A DNA stretch of 64,000 bases from a virus. The position numbers and the translations under genes are program-made. Under the pieces are notes generated by a model. That model was not told the origin of the DNA. It saw nothing but the letters and a program-made list of their open reading frames with translations, and did not search any database. This document shows, piece by piece, positions 3,308 to 57,408 of the stretch. The stretch covers positions 1 through 64,000 of IMG/VR virus record IMGVR_UViG_3300042525_000901; one strand, 5' to 3'. The stretch's first letter is position 1. Each line of letters begins with the position of its first letter.

Positions 3308-3410
3308 AAAACGGCTGTAGCGTTTGCCCTGTAAATGTTTGGGCTGTTTTGAAAGCGTGCCACGTGATGGCATTACCCCTATAAAAGAAGATTACATGGT
3401 GCACGTGGTA
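3308..3410 (-). repeat. CACGTG repeat element, copy 1
   Basis: Minus-strand copy of the nine-member element. The right arm CACGTGGCAC lies at 3358-3367 and the ACAGCCG box at 3308-3318, exactly 38 bp apart. The far arm at about 3401-3410 is degenerate. It fills the gap between the 3416-4261 gene and the start of the 2585-3268 gene. Confidence 0.85.
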
Positions 3411-3415
3411 GAGAG

Positions 3416-4261
3416 TTATGAGGCGACTGCCTGATTTCCGGTTGTGAGAGTTGGGACAAAATCAACTCCGTCGTACGTTCCCAAAATTGCCCCGTCATCG
3501 GTGGCGACAGATCCAGATGCCGGGTCAACGGCTAGGGTTAGCGACCCGGTACGAGCGAGATCCGCGATCGCCTCTGGTAACGTCCCGAGGTTTTCGTTTA
3601 CCCACGCAAGCGCTACTTTCTCAGCATCAACCTGTTGACGTTCGGTTAGGGGTTCACCCTCGGGCGGTAAGTCCGGGGCGGCGGCATCCGCAATCAAGTC
3701 GGGAGGCGGTAGCTGTAGCAGCGTCATTGACAAATCAGCATCGGCCACCTCGCCGCCCCGCCACGCGATTTCGTTTACGCTGACCTCGGACAGCACAACA
3801 GGCGATAGCGTACGTCTCCCCATGACGAATGACAACGCAGGGGGCGCAAATCGACCATTAACCGGATCGGCCTCTGTGAGCGCCTGCAACGCCTTGATCG
3901 CACCCTCAAGCGACACGCCTGCCAACCAACCCCGCAACTTTACGCCTGAGAGCGAATATGAGCGGCTAGCGGAATGTTGAAACTGTACCGAAGGGTATCG
4001 GCTCGCAAGCGGAGCGGCTTCGGTGTATTTCGCGCCAAATGGTGACGAGATGGATTCAGGGTTGACGAGGAACACCCACGGAGTGATAGTCGAGCCTGGT
4101 GCGGGTTCAAACTCAATCAAACGCGCCTCTGCCTTGTCTTTGCTCGCAGTGGGATAATCAGCCCACGCTCCCTTGTTTGTCCAGCTTGGGAATTTTGGCA
4201 GGGATAGCGCGTTGCGGCTAGGGTCGATTTCCTTCGGTGGCTTATCGAAAGCAAATGTCAT
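3416..4261 (-). CDS. Probable tail tube / baseplate hub-associated protein
   Basis: 281 residues. The central part (about 60-205) alternates beta-type segments around motifs resembling a tail-tube or tube-initiator fold: a VNPESISSPFG turn, a YSLSGVKL strand, FVMGRRT and a WRGGEVADADLSMTL strand. The region after about 210 is acidic and proline-rich. The general pattern recalls gpU-like or LysM-associated proteins of contractile tails, but the match is weak. Its start overlaps the stop of the 4261-4545 gene (TAATG), so the two are translationally coupled. The next gene downstream is the Mu gpF-like head protein. Confidence 0.4.
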   Translation of the reverse strand: MTFAFDKPPKEIDPSRNALSLPKFPSWTNKGAWADYPTASKDKAEARLIEFEPAPGSTITPWVFLVNPESISSPFGAKYTEAAPLASRYPSVQFQHSASRSYSLSGVKLRGWLAGVSLEGAIKALQALTEADPVNGRFAPPALSFVMGRRTLSPVVLSEVSVNEIAWRGGEVADADLSMTLLQLPPPDLIADAAAPDLPPEGEPLTERQQVDAEKVALAWVNENLGTLPEAIADLARTGSLTLAVDPASGSVATDDGAILGTYDGVDFVPTLTTGNQAVAS

Positions 4262-4763: not shown

Positions 4764-5224
4764 TGCCTCAAAAACGCCCTGAGAATCCAGACCTGCAACA
4801 GGCGGCGCGTGCCTTAGCCTATGCCGAACTGTACGACGATCGCGCGGCTACGACGGCGTGCGGATGCGATCGCGCGTCGCTGACCCGGTGGCGTGCTAAG
4901 TACCAGCTTGAGCAGGCGGGCGGGTCGGAATTCTCAGAGGCGTTTTACCATTGGCAGCAGCAATTCTCATCACCGGGCGAGACGGTCAAACGAGCGACGA
5001 TCGCCACCAATAAGTTACTCGACACGATCGCCGCGTTTGCTGATCGGGTACAGGGTGACCCTGAATCAGTGCCAGCCGAGATGATGGTCGCGTGTGGTCG
5101 GACACTGGATTACGTGCGGGCAACCGAACGTCAAGCCTCGCAGACAGCGGCATTGGAGCCGCTACGACGCAAGGTGATTACGAAGCAATTAGAATTAGAG
5201 CTGACCATCAGTGGCGATTCGTGA
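4763..5224 (+). CDS. Putative terminase small subunit
   Basis: 153 residues. The N-terminal third holds a helix-turn-helix-like segment (ALAYAELYDDRAATTACGCD then SLTRWRAKY), followed by helices that could oligomerise. Length, position directly before the large terminase and a 14-bp overlap with it all fit a small terminase that recognises the packaging site. The family match is inferred from context; sequence alone would only say DNA-binding helical protein. Confidence 0.55.
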   Translation: MPQKRPENPDLQQAARALAYAELYDDRAATTACGCDRASLTRWRAKYQLEQAGGSEFSEAFYHWQQQFSSPGETVKRATIATNKLLDTIAAFADRVQGDPESVPAEMMVACGRTLDYVRATERQASQTAALEPLRRKVITKQLELELTISGDS

Positions 5225-6212
5225 GTATGGCGATCTCCTGAAGGATGTCCTACCCGATCGCGAGTTCCGGGAACTGGTAGACGCGATCATGGCAGAAGCC
5301 GACGCGGTTGAAGCGGATCGATTTCAGGTTGAACCGGAACCCATTGACGTTCCCGATAACTGGGTGGACTTTGCGCGATCGTGCGTCGTGCGTTCAGGTC
5401 ATGGCACGGTTGGCTTTGATCCGTTCCCGTTCCAAATTGCCTTGGTGGATACCTTTACCAAAAACCGAGGCACGGTGGTGTTGAAGACCCGACAACAGGG
5501 CATCTCCGAAACGTGCTGGATTTGGTTTCTGTGGAAGGCGTGTCGATTCCCCGGCTACACGGCGGCGCTGTTCTCGAAACGGAAGGAAGACACCAGCGAC
5601 TTGGCGCGACGGGTTCGGCTTGCATTGGCGGGCTTGGGCGTGCAATTGGCGTCGGACAACCTCATGACGATCGAGTTGCCCAACCGCTCAAAGCTATTGT
5701 TTCGGACTGCCCGCAAATCAGACGGGCGGGGTATTGCCTCGGTATGGGATCTCCTGTTTGATGAGGCGGCGTTTGTGCCGGATATCGAAGAAATTTATGG
5801 CGGTGCGGTTCCGTCGCAATCGATGCTGGGCGATCGCGCTCGTACGTTGGTTGTGTCAACTCCCGATAGCCCGTCGGGTTGGTATTACGATTTGCTCAAC
5901 ACCGGCAATGGCGATCGCGAAATCGAGGCGGTGTGCCAACAAATCCGCAATCAGGCAGTTGAGCCGTTCCAAGTCTGGACAGACGAGAACGGGTGGGGGA
6001 AGGCGATATTGCATTGGCGAGCGCATCCCATCTACGGAAAGCAAGACGACTACCTGGAACGTGTGGCAAGAAATATGCGCTTGCCAATGTCAACGGTGCG
6101 GCGTGAGTACGACTTGGACTTTGGGCAGTCTGACCGATCGGTGTTTGGCGTTGACCTCGTGAAGCGGGCGCTCGTGATGGATGGCGACGCTGTTGAGTTT
6201 GATGAGTGGTAG
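5211..6212 (+). CDS. terL: Terminase large subunit, ATPase half
   Basis: GTG start at 5211. The 333 residues include the packaging ATPase domain: adenine-binding region near FQIALVDTF, Walker A variant KTRQQGIS around residues 93-100, Walker B LLFDEA around 181-186, and the C-motif VVSTPDSPSG. It stops at DAVEFDEW, just where a normal large terminase would continue into its nuclease domain. The nuclease half is a separate ORF at 8081. The stop codon TAG at 6210-6212 is also the first half of the -10 box TAGAAT of the inserted KilA-N cassette. Either two polypeptides assemble, or the insertion disabled the gene. Confidence 0.9.
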   Translation: MAIREYGDLLKDVLPDREFRELVDAIMAEADAVEADRFQVEPEPIDVPDNWVDFARSCVVRSGHGTVGFDPFPFQIALVDTFTKNRGTVVLKTRQQGISETCWIWFLWKACRFPGYTAALFSKRKEDTSDLARRVRLALAGLGVQLASDNLMTIELPNRSKLLFRTARKSDGRGIASVWDLLFDEAAFVPDIEEIYGGAVPSQSMLGDRARTLVVSTPDSPSGWYYDLLNTGNGDREIEAVCQQIRNQAVEPFQVWTDENGWGKAILHWRAHPIYGKQDDYLERVARNMRLPMSTVRREYDLDFGQSDRSVFGVDLVKRALVMDGDAVEFDEW

Positions 6213-6302
6213 AATGGGGATACTAAAAAGCCCGGTCGCATGGGGACGTTAGCGCGTCCGACCATCACCGGGGGTATCTCGCTCTACCGGGGCGAAACAC
6301 AC
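6210..6302 (+). promoter_or_regulatory. Extended -10 promoter and structured leader, cassette 1
   Basis: TGGTAGAAT is an extended -10 with TAGAAT at 6210-6215. The transcript would begin almost directly with nested stems: GATAC 6219-6223 with GTATC 6274-6278, CCCGGT 6231-6236 with ACCGGG 6267-6272, and an inner hairpin GGACG 6244-6248 with CGTCC 6255-6259 around a 6-nt loop. The leader ends at the KilA-N start. Three other accessory genes have the same architecture with different sequence. Confidence 0.65.
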
Positions 6303-7007
6303 ATGAATTCTAGCAAATCACTGTCGCACAATCTATGCGGGGTTGCTGTTTCCCAAAGCTTTGGAGATGGTTACGTCAATGTGACTCAACTCAGCAAGGC
6401 TTATTTTGAATCGACGGGCAAACGCCGTCAGCCAAATGACTGGCTGCGATTAGAGCGAACGAAAGAGACCTTGGAGCATCTTTCCTCCGTTACGGGGATT
6501 CCCGTAACGGCGCTAGTACGGACGGTTCAGGGTGGTAACGACCTGTCTGCACAGGGAACCTACTTACACCCACGGCTATCGATCCGTTTCGGAATCTGGC
6601 TGTCGGATGAGTTCGGCTTTGCGGTTGAACAGTTTATCTCGCAATGGTCGTCAGAGTTTGGCGACTTTATCCAGACTCGTGACAAAGGCAAGCTGATCCG
6701 CCGATCAACTACCGACGCAATCCAAAACGCGGGCTTTACGGAGCATTATCATTACATCAACGCAACCCAAGTTGTTTACCGATCTCTCTTTGGAAAGACG
6801 GCGAAGGAACTGAAGAAAGACTTAGGCTTGAGCGATCGCGAAAGCTTGCGTGACTCAATGGACGCTCATGATTTACGAATGGTTGAAATGATGGAGTATC
6901 GCCTAGAGAAAGAGCTGGCAAAGGGCGTCCATAAAACGTACTCGGATTTTCATGCAGCCGCGAAACTCATTGGCGAAAATATCAAGACTGCAATGACGAT
7001 TGATTAA
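6303..7007 (+). CDS. KilA-N domain protein
   Basis: 234 residues from the ATG at 6303; an upstream ATG at 6240 falls inside the leader hairpin and is less likely. The N-terminal 110 residues are a KilA-N DNA-binding domain: GDGYVNVTQLSKAYFESTGK, WLRLERTKE, VQGGNDLSAQGTYLHPRLSI and IWLSDEFGFAVEQFI. The C-terminal region (about 120-230) resembles the helical domain often attached to phage antirepressors. Such proteins regulate phage genes or act as antirepressors. It splits the terminase gene, has its own promoter and leader, and ends in a terminator. A 24-bp palindrome lies in the coding sequence at 6487-6510. Confidence 0.85.
   Translation: MNSSKSLSHNLCGVAVSQSFGDGYVNVTQLSKAYFESTGKRRQPNDWLRLERTKETLEHLSSVTGIPVTALVRTVQGGNDLSAQGTYLHPRLSIRFGIWLSDEFGFAVEQFISQWSSEFGDFIQTRDKGKLIRRSTTDAIQNAGFTEHYHYINATQVVYRSLFGKTAKELKKDLGLSDRESLRDSMDAHDLRMVEMMEYRLEKELAKGVHKTYSDFHAAAKLIGENIKTAMTID
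6487..6510. promoter_or_regulatory. Conserved palindrome inside the KilA-N gene
   Basis: CCGTTACGGG and CCCGTAACGG are perfect 10-bp inverted arms around GATT. The homologous place in the second KilA-N gene (57070-57093) is also palindromic, with compensated base changes. It may be a binding site or an RNA hairpin. Confidence 0.6.
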
Positions 7008-7034
7008 TTAGGCGATCGCTCTGATGTAGTTTAT

Positions 7035-7057
7035 GCCCCGTCATTTTGGCGGGGTTT
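7035..7057 (+). terminator. Hairpin terminator after KilA-N gene
   Basis: CCCCG and CGGGG pair around TCATTTTGG and are followed by TTTC. The T run is short. The hairpin sits between the KilA-N stop and the next gene's start. Confidence 0.6.
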
Positions 7058-7065
7058 CAAAAGAA

Positions 7066-7971
7066 ATGTCCAAACAGAAGAAAAATACCCTTCGTCTTGT
7101 GGCAAAAGAGGCTAGCGCGATTGCAAATCGCAACGAGCTTCAAGTAAAACCTTTTCACCGTAAATACGAAACGCTTCGCAAAGCCTTTGTTTCTAATCAA
7201 GGCAACATAAAAATGCAAGCTCCAAACGGGCAAGGTGTACGCATCCTCTCTCGATTCCATTTCAAAGAAACACCTTTAAATTTTGCGTCGCATTTTGAGC
7301 CTTTTTTTCTTTTACTTGCGCTTGCTTATGACATCAGAGAAAAACCTAACTGTGTTCTTGTCGGAGACGAAGCTGACTGTTACCGAGCCATAGAGGTGGT
7401 GGCTCAAGATTGCCTGGAGATAGGCATGTCTTCCCCCTCTTATGCCCGTCCATTGACAACACCAACGATAGGAATTGATCAAACTACAGCAGATCTTTTA
7501 TTTCAAACAGACTTGCCACGGGATTTTTCGAGAACAAAAATCCCGTGGGAATATGGGATTATTTTTTTTGATAAACGGTGTCATAATAGCCGATTTCAAG
7601 ACTTTCCTTGCTGGATTGCGTTTTCTGCTACGGGGAAAAACCTTATTGCCTACAATGAGCTAACCTCTCAATCTGTTGTTATTGATTACCAAAAATCAGG
7701 GCGGAACCGACCTCTGACAATACTAGCCCCTAGCCTTGATGGTGAAATACTTTTTGCTAATGCAGACATAGAAACATCAAGTCCTGATGATCTCAACTGT
7801 GGCAAAAGTAAGCCTGTCGTTACGCTTGAGGATGAATATTTCCTGTTTTGTCGTCGGCTACTAGGCAACGTTTTTGCTATGGCTAACGCATACCCTACGG
7901 ATAAGTCCGCATCACCAACCTCCTTAATATCTTTCAATCTCAGTTCCAAACAAAGTCAACTCAATGGATAA
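7066..7971 (+). CDS. Unknown accessory protein, AT-rich
   Basis: 301 residues from the ATG at 7066. I recognise no domain. The N-terminus is basic (SKQKKNTLRLVAKEAS). The middle has alternating hydrophobic strands (NCVLVGDEADCYRAIEVVAQDC, WEYGIIFFDKR, CWIAFSATGKN), suggesting an alpha/beta fold. Base composition is clearly more AT-rich than the surrounding phage genes and it contains almost no GCGATCGC sites, both signs of recent acquisition. It lies with the KilA-N gene between the two terminase halves, a typical place for a moron. A defence or host-interaction role is possible but unproven. Confidence 0.6.
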   Translation: MSKQKKNTLRLVAKEASAIANRNELQVKPFHRKYETLRKAFVSNQGNIKMQAPNGQGVRILSRFHFKETPLNFASHFEPFFLLLALAYDIREKPNCVLVGDEADCYRAIEVVAQDCLEIGMSSPSYARPLTTPTIGIDQTTADLLFQTDLPRDFSRTKIPWEYGIIFFDKRCHNSRFQDFPCWIAFSATGKNLIAYNELTSQSVVIDYQKSGRNRPLTILAPSLDGEILFANADIETSSPDDLNCGKSKPVVTLEDEYFLFCRRLLGNVFAMANAYPTDKSASPTSLISFNLSSKQSQLNG

Positions 7972-8080: not shown

Positions 8081-8680
8081 ATGCCCACCGAAACGATCGC
8101 CTCACTCGACTGTGCCACCAGCGGCGCGGACTACCTCGTGTTCCTGGTAGGCCGCGTCACCAGCGAAGGCGTCAAAGTCATCGCCAAATTCAGACGCCAA
8201 AAGGTCACGATGACCGAGGCGATCGCGACGATCGCAGCGATGACAGCCCGCTACGAAATTTCGCGCATCGTCGTCGAAACCACCGGTGGCGTAGGCGAAC
8301 TCTACCGCCAACAGCTCATCGAACGCAGCGATATTCGTGCCGGTATCATCGGCTTCAACACCACGGCACAATCCAAGCCGATCGCGATCGAGCGGCTAGC
8401 CCTCTTCCTAGAGCGCGGTTGGCTGCAAATCTCCGACCCGCAAATCGCCGATGAGCTAAAGGCATTCCAGCGAAACGGACGCAAGCTTGAGGCCGCGTCG
8501 GGTAAGCACGACGACACGGTCATGGCGCTCGCGTTCCTCGTGTCGATTGTGGAGATCGACCGGCTTCAGTATGGCGATCGTGATCCGACGTCCCTTCGGT
8601 TTTTCGCGACCGAACCCAAGCGATACGAGTCCGTGCCCGAGGCTCGCAACGAATTTCGCAGCATGTTTGGAGGCGATTAA
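8081..8680 (+). CDS. terL: Terminase large subunit, nuclease half
   Basis: 199 residues forming an RNase H-like terminase nuclease. The first acidic strand is IASLDCATSG (Asp10), a second acidic position follows IVVET around residue 68, and the third site is the HDDTVMALAF motif around 143-152. A normal large terminase carries this after the ATPase domain; here the ATPase half ends at 6212 and 1868 bp of inserted DNA separate them. The reading frame upstream of the ATG is open for only about a dozen codons. The catalytic residues are intact, so the split protein may still work in trans. Confidence 0.88.
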   Translation: MPTETIASLDCATSGADYLVFLVGRVTSEGVKVIAKFRRQKVTMTEAIATIAAMTARYEISRIVVETTGGVGELYRQQLIERSDIRAGIIGFNTTAQSKPIAIERLALFLERGWLQISDPQIADELKAFQRNGRKLEAASGKHDDTVMALAFLVSIVEIDRLQYGDRDPTSLRFFATEPKRYESVPEARNEFRSMFGGD

Positions 8681-14425: not shown

Positions 14426-14444
14426 AAAGCTGGATTGTTGCTGC

Positions 14445-14546
14445 TAGAATATTAGGGTATTTTGATCGCCGCGCCGAATGGTGGAACATTCGGCATTATC
14501 AGCGGTAATCAAAAGGAACTCTCGATCCCATACATAGATTTTACCA
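14445..14546 (+). promoter_or_regulatory. Extended -10 promoter and structured leader, cassette 2
   Basis: TGCTAGAAT gives TAGAAT at 14445-14450. The outer stem TTTTGAT 14460-14466 pairs with ATCAAAA 14508-14514. The inner hairpin is CCGAATG 14474-14480 with CATTCGG 14487-14493 and a 6-nt loop, followed by CATTA as in cassettes 3 and 4. Confidence 0.65.
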
Positions 14547-15743
14547 ATGGCTGACTTATTTTTCCCGTGTTCGGAACCACTGCGCCACGACTCTGGGCGC
14601 AGTGGTGTCATGCTGATTCAAACAACAGCGGATTGGGTCGTCAAAGCTCATCGCAAATTGGACTTGATTTCGGCTAACTTGCGGACTCAATGCCTGAATA
14701 AAACGGTTCGAGAGATTATTGATACGTTGATCCGAGAGCCTGAGATGTTCATCTTCAAAGCTGACCCGATCAAGCTCTCGATCGAAACAGCGGTGTACAG
14801 TTATGCAAAAGGCGGGCTGGAATGCGTGGCTTTGCCGTCGCAAGGTCAAGGCTTCAACAATGGGGGCGGTCGTATTCGCGCCTTTTGCTTGGCTGTTGAG
14901 CAATCCGATTCTGTTGACCTATCAAAGATCCCGGTTTTCCTCCATATCGCTTACGGCTTAAGCGACGAAAAACAGGTAGATGTGTGCGTAGCTTCAAACA
15001 CATCTACGAACGTTGGGGCTGCATCAATCCTAAATAAACGCGGGATCTTTGACCCCATCAAGGAGCGCTGGGGTGACAAGTTCCCCTGGTGCGTCTATCA
15101 CGAGGGACAGCACACGGCGGATCTGGGAGAGGCGCATTCGTTCTCCTCGTCAGTGTCTGTCGTTCTTTTGATCAACCTGATGCTATGTGTCAGCCCTTCC
15201 TACAACTATGAGCTAGGGAAGCATCCATCCTCCATTGTTTCTGGCAGCGGCGTTTTGTCCGCCCCTCGGCTGGCCGAGATTAGTATCAAACACCGACTAC
15301 ACTTGCTTGGAGATTTGTACGATATTTGGTTTTACGGGATGGAAGCTATAAAGGCGTACGTTGATCGCTATGGGTGGGTAAGTCAGGAGACCGGGCGTCC
15401 CTTTTTCCCTAGCACAAAGAATAGCCCAAAAAAAGCTACTCATTTCATGCATACGCCTCTCAAGTGGCCTGGGCTAATCAGCAAAGACATTCCGGTTCCA
15501 GTCGTCGCTGCTTGCCGTGTTTTTCTTCGCGACAATGACTGGGGCGTGACCCGTTCCTGGTTGATGAAAGTAGCCGTTCCCGCGCTTTGGAAACAGTACC
15601 AGATTTCGCTAGTCAAAAGTGCCAAGATACAGAAATACACCAACCTTCGCGCCGCGCTAGGTCATGAGTCCATGTGGTCGAGTTTGGTCATCAAAGCGCA
15701 AAGCCTGCTGAACGAATATAACGAACAGAAGCGATCAGCTTAG
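14547..15743 (+). CDS. AIPR-like abortive-infection protein
   Basis: 398 residues. The segment NNGGGRIRAFCLA around residues 109-121, followed by IPVFLHIAYG and VCVASNTSTNVGAASIL, resembles the central motif of AIPR (abortive infection phage resistance) proteins, in which a NGxQR-type motif is followed by an atNtq motif. No membrane segment is seen. AIPR proteins are implicated in phage exclusion, but the mechanism is not shown by the sequence. It has its own promoter, structured leader and a long hairpin downstream, so it is an inserted moron between the spike and head-completion genes. Confidence 0.55.
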   Translation: MADLFFPCSEPLRHDSGRSGVMLIQTTADWVVKAHRKLDLISANLRTQCLNKTVREIIDTLIREPEMFIFKADPIKLSIETAVYSYAKGGLECVALPSQGQGFNNGGGRIRAFCLAVEQSDSVDLSKIPVFLHIAYGLSDEKQVDVCVASNTSTNVGAASILNKRGIFDPIKERWGDKFPWCVYHEGQHTADLGEAHSFSSSVSVVLLINLMLCVSPSYNYELGKHPSSIVSGSGVLSAPRLAEISIKHRLHLLGDLYDIWFYGMEAIKAYVDRYGWVSQETGRPFFPSTKNSPKKATHFMHTPLKWPGLISKDIPVPVVAACRVFLRDNDWGVTRSWLMKVAVPALWKQYQISLVKSAKIQKYTNLRAALGHESMWSSLVIKAQSLLNEYNEQKRSA

Positions 15744-15753
15744 CCCTGTTTCT

Positions 15754-15810
15754 TACCACAGCGAAAACACCCGGATCTTGTAGGACGATCCGGGTATTTT
15801 CGCTGTGGTA
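15754..15810. terminator. Long inverted repeat, terminator overlapping the next promoter
   Basis: A 24-bp arm at 15754-15777 and its complement at 15787-15810 differ at one position and are separated by 9 bp. The core is ACCCGGATC with GATCCGGGT, bounded by AAAA and TTTT. The right arm contains the TGG of the next extended -10 box. It can end transcription of the AIPR-like gene. Confidence 0.75.
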
Positions 15811-15903
15811 AAATGATGGAGTATTTTGATCGCCTAGCCAGGTGCTACCAACACCCGGCATTACCAAGACGATCTTCCTGCGTGAACACACCACGCAATC
15901 AAC
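15807..15903 (+). promoter_or_regulatory. Extended -10 promoter and structured leader, cassette 3
   Basis: TGGTAAAAT with TAAAAT at 15809-15814. The outer stem GATCGCC 15828-15834 pairs with GACGATC 15868-15874 with one mismatch. The inner hairpin is CCAGGTG 15838-15844 with CACCCGG 15852-15858. GCATTACCAA separates the two stems, as in cassette 4. Confidence 0.7.
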
Positions 15904-16419
15904 ATGAGTATATCAAAATCGCAGCGCGAAACCGTCCGGTTCTTTGACGGACTTTCTATCGATGGCTACATGATGCCAGATGGAAGCTTTCGAGTTTCCA
16001 TGAGTGGGGCGAGCATCTTGATGGGTTTCGCTCCAAACTGGCTTGGACGATTAATAAGCCGGGGTGGTACAAACCTCAAAGCCTTACAGGGTTTAGGTTT
16101 CAGCGGACAAACCGAGGAAACTGGTACATTTGCAGGAAAACCAGCTCAGACCATTAGCCTTAAGGATTTTCAGCGACTTCTCTTGTTTGGAGTGCAAGCG
16201 GGTAAGCCCCAAGCGATCGCCCTTCAAATGGCGCTGTCTGATATGGCGCTTGGGGATTTCTTTCGAGACGCTTTCGGGTTGCGTGCGCTATCAATCGAAG
16301 AAAAACGAGCGAAGTTTTACCAGGCATTCGCCGCAACACTCACTCGTCAAGATTGGCTCGACTGGGATCGTGGTGACGTTGAAGAGCTGGAAGACCATGC
16401 TCGCTTTTTAGGAGCCTAG
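15904..16419 (+). CDS. Phage regulatory or antirepressor-like protein
   Basis: 171 residues. The layout is an N-terminal VRFFDGLSIDGYMMPDGSFR strand region, a helix with GASILMGFAPNWLGR, a glycine-rich LQGLGFSG turn, and a helical part with SLKDFQRLLLFG and LGDFFRDAFG. This pattern resembles a family of cyanobacterial hypothetical proteins and phage antirepressors that I know only by general appearance. Its leader is almost the same as that of the second KilA-N gene, pointing to shared regulation. The next gene starts 4 bp after its stop, so the two form an operon. Confidence 0.6.
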   Translation: MSISKSQRETVRFFDGLSIDGYMMPDGSFRVSMSGASILMGFAPNWLGRLISRGGTNLKALQGLGFSGQTEETGTFAGKPAQTISLKDFQRLLLFGVQAGKPQAIALQMALSDMALGDFFRDAFGLRALSIEEKRAKFYQAFAATLTRQDWLDWDRGDVEELEDHARFLGA

Positions 16420-56776: not shown

Positions 56777-57256
56777 TCAATCGTATGGAGTCACGTCATC
56801 CATTGCCGCGTCCCATGAGTTTTGGCGATGCCAAAGCATATCCCGGCGCAGTTCGTCGCGATTGTACTCGGATTGATTGAGCGCGTGCTTGAGTGAAGAC
56901 AACTCTTCCTGTAGTTCGACTTTGCCTTGGGTTAGCAGTTTCTCGATCATGGAGTAAACCCAAACCTCGAACGCAGCATTAAGCCACGCAGCCAGTTTTA
57001 AGGCGACTCGCGGATGAACCCATGTACCTTGCAGTTGCGGCGTACCACCTTGAACTTGCTGGATCAATTCCGTTATGGGAATTCCCATAACGGGCGAAAG
57101 TGCCTCTAGGTAAGCCTTTGTGGATTTCAATCGAAGAAAGTCAGCAAACAATCGACCATGACGCTGACACATTTCTGTTGCGTTCCAGTACCCATCAGAA
57201 CGAATGGTGATGGGTTTGCCGCTGTCGAAATACTCGCGAAAAACTGATAAACTCAT
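56777..57256 (-). CDS. Second KilA-N domain protein
   Basis: 159 residues. The KilA-N core is clear: ITIRSDGYWNATEMCQRHGRLFADFLRL, TKAYLEALSPVMGIPITEL, then QLQGTWVHPRVALKLAAWL. A C-terminal coiled coil (VELQEELSSLKHALNQSEYN) may dimerise it. It shares the IQQVQGGTPQ/VQGG motif and the internal palindrome with the 6303 gene, so the two are related. It lies in a minus-strand insertion between tail chaperone and tape measure. Confidence 0.85.
   Translation of the reverse strand: MSLSVFREYFDSGKPITIRSDGYWNATEMCQRHGRLFADFLRLKSTKAYLEALSPVMGIPITELIQQVQGGTPQLQGTWVHPRVALKLAAWLNAAFEVWVYSMIEKLLTQGKVELQEELSSLKHALNQSEYNRDELRRDMLWHRQNSWDAAMDDVTPYD
57070..57093. promoter_or_regulatory. Conserved palindrome inside the second KilA-N gene
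   Basis: CCGTTATGGG and CCCATAACGG are perfect inverted arms around AATT. Compared with the first KilA-N gene, the C-G pair is a T-A pair in both arms. Confidence 0.6.
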
Positions 57257-57352
57257 ATTGATTGCGTGGTTGGTACACGCATGACGATCGCCTTGGTAAT
57301 GCCGGATGCTGTCAACATCTGGCTAGGCGATCAAATACTTCATAATTTTACC
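57257..57352 (-). promoter_or_regulatory. Extended -10 promoter and structured leader, cassette 4
   Basis: On the minus strand TGGTAAAAT gives TAAAAT at 57345-57350. Outer stem GATCGCC with GGCGATC is perfect; inner hairpin is CCAGATG with CATCCGG. GCATTACCAA separates them as in cassette 3. Confidence 0.7.
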
Positions 57353-57408
57353 ACGACTTCCAGCAGGGTAAAACCCTATCTAGCTTGGGCAGAAGATTCC
57401 CCATATTT

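Follow-up and report, generated by a model that had tools for sequence, protein, structure and literature searches.

The question raised by this locus is whether several accessory genes of one virus are headed by the same kind of promoter and structured RNA leader, as the initial annotation proposed for four cassettes, referred to here as W1 (the cassette at 6210) to W4. The window, i.e., the whole stretch of DNA analysed, covers 64 kb out of a 65.7 kb IMG/VR virus record. The nearest matches of its terminase are from Nodularia and other cyanophages, and the virus is therefore taken to be a cyanophage; the presence of tail sheath and baseplate genes likewise indicates a contractile tail. A search of IMG/VR by DNA pattern for close relatives retrieved only two contigs, near-identical where compared, the remainder being chance matches. 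All of the strings quoted in the initial annotation are present in the window.

Leaders W2 (14442-14546, plus strand), W3 (15806-15903, plus strand), and W4 (57353-57257, minus strand) are one family. They have in common TGnTARAAT, GTATTT(T)GATCGCC, an inner stem of 7-8 pairs, GGCATTA, and a gene close downstream, and in each the extended -10 is followed by the outer and inner stem, the kept GGCATTA, and the gene. W3 and W4 match at 85% over 91 nt (15825-15915 vs. 57245-57335). The features of the three cassettes are as follows.

14442-14450, plus strand: extended -10 promoter of W2, TGCTAGAAT, without a -35 match
14460-14514, plus strand: W2 leader structure, outer stem TTTTGATCGCCGC/GCGGTAATCAAAA, inner stem GCCGAATG/CATTCGGC (14473-14480/14487-14494), loop GTGGAA, kept tail ATTATCA, fold z -3.5
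14547-15743, plus strand: W2 cassette gene, 398 aa, no family
15806-15814, plus strand: extended -10 of W3, TGGTAAAAT
15828-15874, plus strand: W3 hairpin 1, outer stem GATCGCC/GACGATC, loop CTACCAA, tail ATTACCA, z -2.8
15837-15844/15852-15859, plus strand: W3 inner stem, GCCAGGTG/CACCCGGC, with an A.C mismatch
15879-15897, plus strand: W3 hairpin 2, TGCGTG/CACGCA, immediately 5' of the start codon
15904-16419, plus strand: W3 cassette gene, phrog_32599, predicted Bro-N/antirepressor fold
57345-57353, minus strand: extended -10 of W4, TGGTAAAAT
57286-57332, minus strand: W4 hairpin 1, outer stem GATCGCC/GGCGATC, inner stem GCCAGATG/CATCCGGC, loop TTGACAG, tail ATTACCA, z -4.1
57263-57281, minus strand: W4 hairpin 2, TGCGTG/CACGCA, immediately 5' of the start codon
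56777-57256, minus strand: W4 cassette gene, KilA-N (E 7.5e-20)

The predicted RNA folds of W1 to W4 are all more stable than those of shuffled sequences (z -2.8 to -4.1). A structural descriptor consisting of an extended -10, P1, a 1-3/1 internal loop, P2, and a tail matches exactly W2, W3, and W4 in the window, while 300 dinucleotide shuffles gave a mean of 0.05 matches (maximum 1) and 106 kb of control DNA gave none; as the descriptor had been loosened to cover these three leaders, its count is a gauge of rarity and not a blind test. The initial annotation had further argued that base pairs change together. This holds for 2 of 15 pairs in W2-W4, a number that 63 of 500 shuffles reach and that is not significant, and two of the three inner stems contain an A.C mismatch. 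The covariation argument from the window pointed in the right direction and was too thin by itself.

Of the genes in these cassettes, the 398-aa gene of W2 had been called AIPR-like, a reading that found no support: PF10592 scores 16.7 bits vs. a cut-off of 25 (Pfam E = 0.006), PHROGs, PADLOC, and NCBIfam gave nothing, and a structure predicted from the single sequence was uninformative (pLDDT 33). For the W3 protein, the best named BFVD matches of the predicted structure (pLDDT 80) are Bro-N/antirepressor proteins (E 2e-4 to 2e-3); against the PDB, no match fell under 0.001. An inverted repeat with 47 nt arms (77%) lies at 15731-15833, between the W2 gene and the W3 promoter, and is perhaps a two-way terminator. 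Two other repeat families were seen in the window. One, about 100 nt long and mostly intergenic (11676, 13518, 23116, 39031, and 62730 on the plus strand; 3309-3418, 46904, 58517, and 59417 on the minus strand), carries CCACGTGCACCATGTAAT-TCTTTTATATAGGGGTAATGCCATCACGTGG with an imperfect CACGTG dyad around TATATAGGGG and may be a phage promoter class. The other, ATTATACACAAAACACGC, is found near minus-strand gene starts (26316, 33387, 34551, 38617, 45400, and 58421) and may be another.

The proposal of a paired RNA leader is borne out mainly outside the window. Homologues of the W3 gene were found in the Planktothrix phage PaV-LD and in viral contigs, and upstream of them the same order recurs: promoter, hairpin, tail, and start codon. 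Seven of these upstream leaders, none from the window, were the seed of a first covariance model, which was matched 28 times, in 11 of 16 records; PaV-LD accounts for five of these matches. A second model gave matches in 18 of 22 records, with up to six per phage, standing ahead of different genes, for a total of 70, of which 40 are distinct. Across the 40 distinct leaders, 10 of 10 base pairs show double-sided changes and 99.2% of cells are paired, which none of 500 shuffles matched, and all measures collapse when the partner is slid by 1-3 columns. The alignment of the 40 leaders was fitted to the covariance model; a MAFFT alignment of the seven seed leaders gives the same picture, with double-sided changes at 7 of 10 pairs. 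Within PaV-LD alone, the P1 arms vary among copies and complementarity is kept. We also looked for broken stems in homologous leaders, and the stems hold. Pairing of hairpin 1 as RNA is well supported by these comparisons and, as judged from sequence, this is an undescribed RNA leader family in cyanophages whose stems are maintained by compensatory change. No leader scores at the curated cut-off in Rfam release 15, and permissive searches gave chance matches only. An origin from host genomes was rejected, as strict filters left only two weak matches among 386 cyanobacterial genomes. The other isolates LMM01, MaMV-DC, CL131, Pam2, and 2AV2 gave no leader match, and two weak matches in CrV-01T were set aside as identical repeat copies with no gene downstream.

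Most copies have an extended -10, mostly TGATATAAT, just upstream. An A/T-rich start then leads into P1 of about six pairs (19 arm combinations), an internal loop with CGC on the 5' side in 36 of 40 leaders and an opposite single C in 38 of 40, P2 (GRTG/CAYC) with an apical loop of mostly 6-7 nt, and the tail GUNAACC. The apical loops are of 24 kinds, and this variety led us to reject a conserved loop as the target of an antisense RNA. The loop ends are C..A in 25 leaders and U..G in 11, and Watson-Crick closure was seen once vs. 15.6 expected (by distinct loops, Fisher P 4e-5). Loop inversion, with CTGAAA in one leader and TTTCAG in another that is otherwise identical, was seen in two pairs (L121:2164-2220/L101:1669-1725 and L109:4524-4579/L104:3608-3663); the C.A/U.G closure may stem from such inversion and is therefore no independent proof of an isosteric pair. 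The tail pairs better with its own ribosome-binding region than in swapped leaders (P 0.0011; 0.0024-0.025 after clustering), so that a second hairpin is suggested. This hairpin is clear in L077 and weak in a number of copies, PaV-LD ORF068 among them, and predicted pairing of the ribosome-binding region is only about half. In the window copies the tail sits within the outer stem and hairpin 2 is built from other sequence; W1, W3, and W4 have a second hairpin of different sequence ahead of the start codon.

Neither covariance model scores any window leader, and with filters off only W3 gave a match, to P2. Compared with the modelled leaders, W2-W4 have a shorter P1 (GCC/GGC), A/C where CGC/C stands, and an extra outer stem. 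The W3 gene (15904) is 62% identical to the gene behind the model-positive leader L034, and the two leaders occupy the same position. All of W2-W4 run through extended -10, P1, internal loop, P2, 6-7 nt loop, C, P1', T-A-C tail, and gene, and the shared strings GATGTTGnnAGCATCC...GGCA-TTA have a P of 0.025-0.08 per leader. Because of the orthologous gene pair, the shared strings, and the order captured by the descriptor (three found, 0.05 expected), we regard W2-W4 as very probable relatives of the modelled cyanophage leaders.

The fourth cassette, W1, lies inside a split terminase gene.

5211-6212: terminase large subunit, ATPase half
6207-6302, plus strand: leader W1, with its -10, TGGTAGAAT, overlapping the stop codon of the N-half of the terminase; z -3.1
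6207-6302, plus strand: W1 stems, GATAC/GTATC enclosing CCCGGT-CGC-ATGG...CCAT-C-ACCGGG, plus an additional hairpin at the apex; a second hairpin precedes the ATG
6303-7007, plus strand: KilA-N gene of the W1 cassette, flanked by the two terminase halves
8081-8680: terminase large subunit, nuclease half

W1 has the promoter, the stems, and, on inspection, the CGC/C internal loop found in the leaders of the relatives. The GGCATTA tail is absent from W1, its sequence similarity to the W2-W4 family is not significant (P = 0.28), and it does not show the order of elements found in W2-W4. W1 keeps the architecture and is the weakest of the four cases; on whether it is related to the leader family we consider the odds even. 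The terminase halves abut on an intact Nodularia protein (residues about 337 and 335), and in the window they are separated by the KilA-N cassette and a 312-aa ORF of no family (7033-7971). This looks like a mobile cassette insertion in the terminase, each half having its own start and stop. A self-splicing intron was rejected, since no Rfam match was obtained and both halves have a start and a stop of their own. The split-terminase stretch is identical in two further contigs; a search for a relative with the empty site found none.

That the leader is common to KilA-N and regulatory genes, as first annotated, is confirmed, and its range is wider still. Behind the leaders are KilA-N genes, KilA-N joined to MUG113/T5orf172, Bro-N genes, and GIY-YIG/SegE/NUMOD3 nucleases, together with a weak MSV199 match, PAPS-reductase-like, DnaA_N-like, and unassigned genes. 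Most leader-borne genes belong, by their predicted products, to one functional class, that of shuffled viral DNA-binding regulators and homing nucleases. In L103:5676-5731 we observed a chimeric leader with a hairpin like that of L108, a ribosome-binding hairpin like that of L109, and a gene like that of L108; this is module exchange, and the predicted promoter-leader unit exchanges between copies as a module. Elsewhere, L066:1419-1476 and L070:1501-1556 are the same leader without and with the asymmetric internal loop, the former being a perfect palindrome, as if from template-switch repair. No ORF was found close downstream of the leaders L087:10981-11035 and L093:8349-8403, possibly orphan leaders or decayed cassettes.

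Our main reading, to which we give a probability of roughly 0.55, is that of a family of cis-acting structured two-hairpin leaders, each with its own extended -10, in front of KilA-N, Bro-N/antirepressor, or GIY-YIG genes. The extended -10 would drive each copy, and the transcript would begin with hairpin 1 (P1, usually the CGC/C internal loop, P2, and a 6-7 nt loop closed by C.A or U.G) and continue with the GUNAACC tail, which would form hairpin 2 by pairing with the ribosome-binding region. Hairpin 2 may hold down translation of potentially harmful DNA-binding or DNA-cutting proteins, and a phage or host protein that recognises hairpin 1 may set the level of translation. From its position, hairpin 1 likely acts in cis on expression; that hairpin 2 mediates an effect on translation is a hypothesis to which the statistics lend modest support. 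We would put forward only tentatively the further idea that a common trans-acting factor co-regulates the unrelated KilA-N, Bro-N-type, antirepressor, and GIY-YIG genes through this one class of cis-acting RNA, with the flipping loop as part of the control.

A generic 5'-end hairpin with no specific partner, which would protect the mRNA from 5'-end-dependent decay or shield the start site from read-through, would account for the hairpin lying close behind the -10 in most copies and for the 19 kinds of freely varying P1 arms, but we think it unlikely, as a plain stabiliser needs no asymmetric CGC/C loop, non-Watson-Crick closure, or GUNAACC tail. The same region could instead be read as double-stranded DNA, P2 being a short dyad (GRTG-N6/7-CAYC) that adjoins the promoter just 3' of the -10, where a phage repressor might bind; loop inversions that spare the dyad are tolerated, and the genes encode DNA-binding proteins. 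Such an operator is improbable in view of the P1 arms, which differ between copies in one phage yet remain complementary, of the internal loop that interrupts the dyad, and of the double-sided changes at every pair. We give little credence to a recombination joint resembling PeSL elements, kept only for module exchange and with covariation arising from template-switch repair of an imperfect palindrome. The loop flips in otherwise identical leaders, the identical hairpins preceding different genes or none, the combined parts in L103, and the now perfect palindrome of L066 all fit it; palindrome repair, however, would remove the asymmetric internal loop, a feature that 36 of 40 leaders retain, and the conserved tail lies outside the palindrome. 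Despite the GC-rich hairpin, a transcription terminator or attenuator is very improbable, since no T run was found 3' of the stem and none of the leaders was called as a terminator.

Known phage systems resemble the two-hairpin leaders in part. The C4 antisense RNA (Rfam RF01695) controls antirepressor genes of P1/P7-type phages. The leaders are C4-like as candidates for RNA control of antirepressor/KilA-class phage genes, but differ from C4 in having no Rfam match and in forming one cis hairpin upstream of each gene. In phages T4 and Aeh1, hairpins at homing endonuclease genes (I-TevI, segB, mobE) sequester the ribosome-binding site, and in a further likeness to our leaders seg43(25) has a hairpin upstream of a free ribosome-binding site (PMC2988022). 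Shared with these is an RNA hairpin and own promoter upstream of mobile nuclease genes, and mobE of Aeh1 sits within a host gene much as the 6210 cassette lies between terminase halves. In T4, late-promoter transcripts are too short for the hairpin (PMC2988022), whereas here the hairpin is downstream of the promoter; a promoter inside or past the hairpin, giving hairpin-free transcripts of the T4 type, was not found, the extended -10 being upstream of hairpin 1. PMC2988022 describes the T4/Aeh1 hairpins neither as a single sequence or structure family nor as an element that KilA-N/Bro-N genes have in common with them. PeSL elements of T4-type phages (Arbiol 2010; Comeau 2014), as outlined in PMC4503421, place a promoter and stem-loop before accessory genes and are linked to module shuffling, and our leaders likewise have a promoter and stem-loop before exchangeable accessory genes. 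The title of the 2014 paper speaks of promoter-terminator motifs, while here the stem is 3' of the promoter and has no T run, and in contrast to PeSLs as outlined there, our leaders have a conserved internal loop, tail, and covariation. In the open papers, the conserved core of these leaders was not found among T4/Aeh1 hairpins or PeSLs.

Few genes of DNA viruses are as widespread and as shuffled as those of the KilA-N, Bro-N, and GIY-YIG types, whose control in phages is little understood. PaV-LD with Planktothrix is an isolated phage system suited to testing the leader. A shared RNA leader, present in up to six copies per phage, would be a common control point for such genes.
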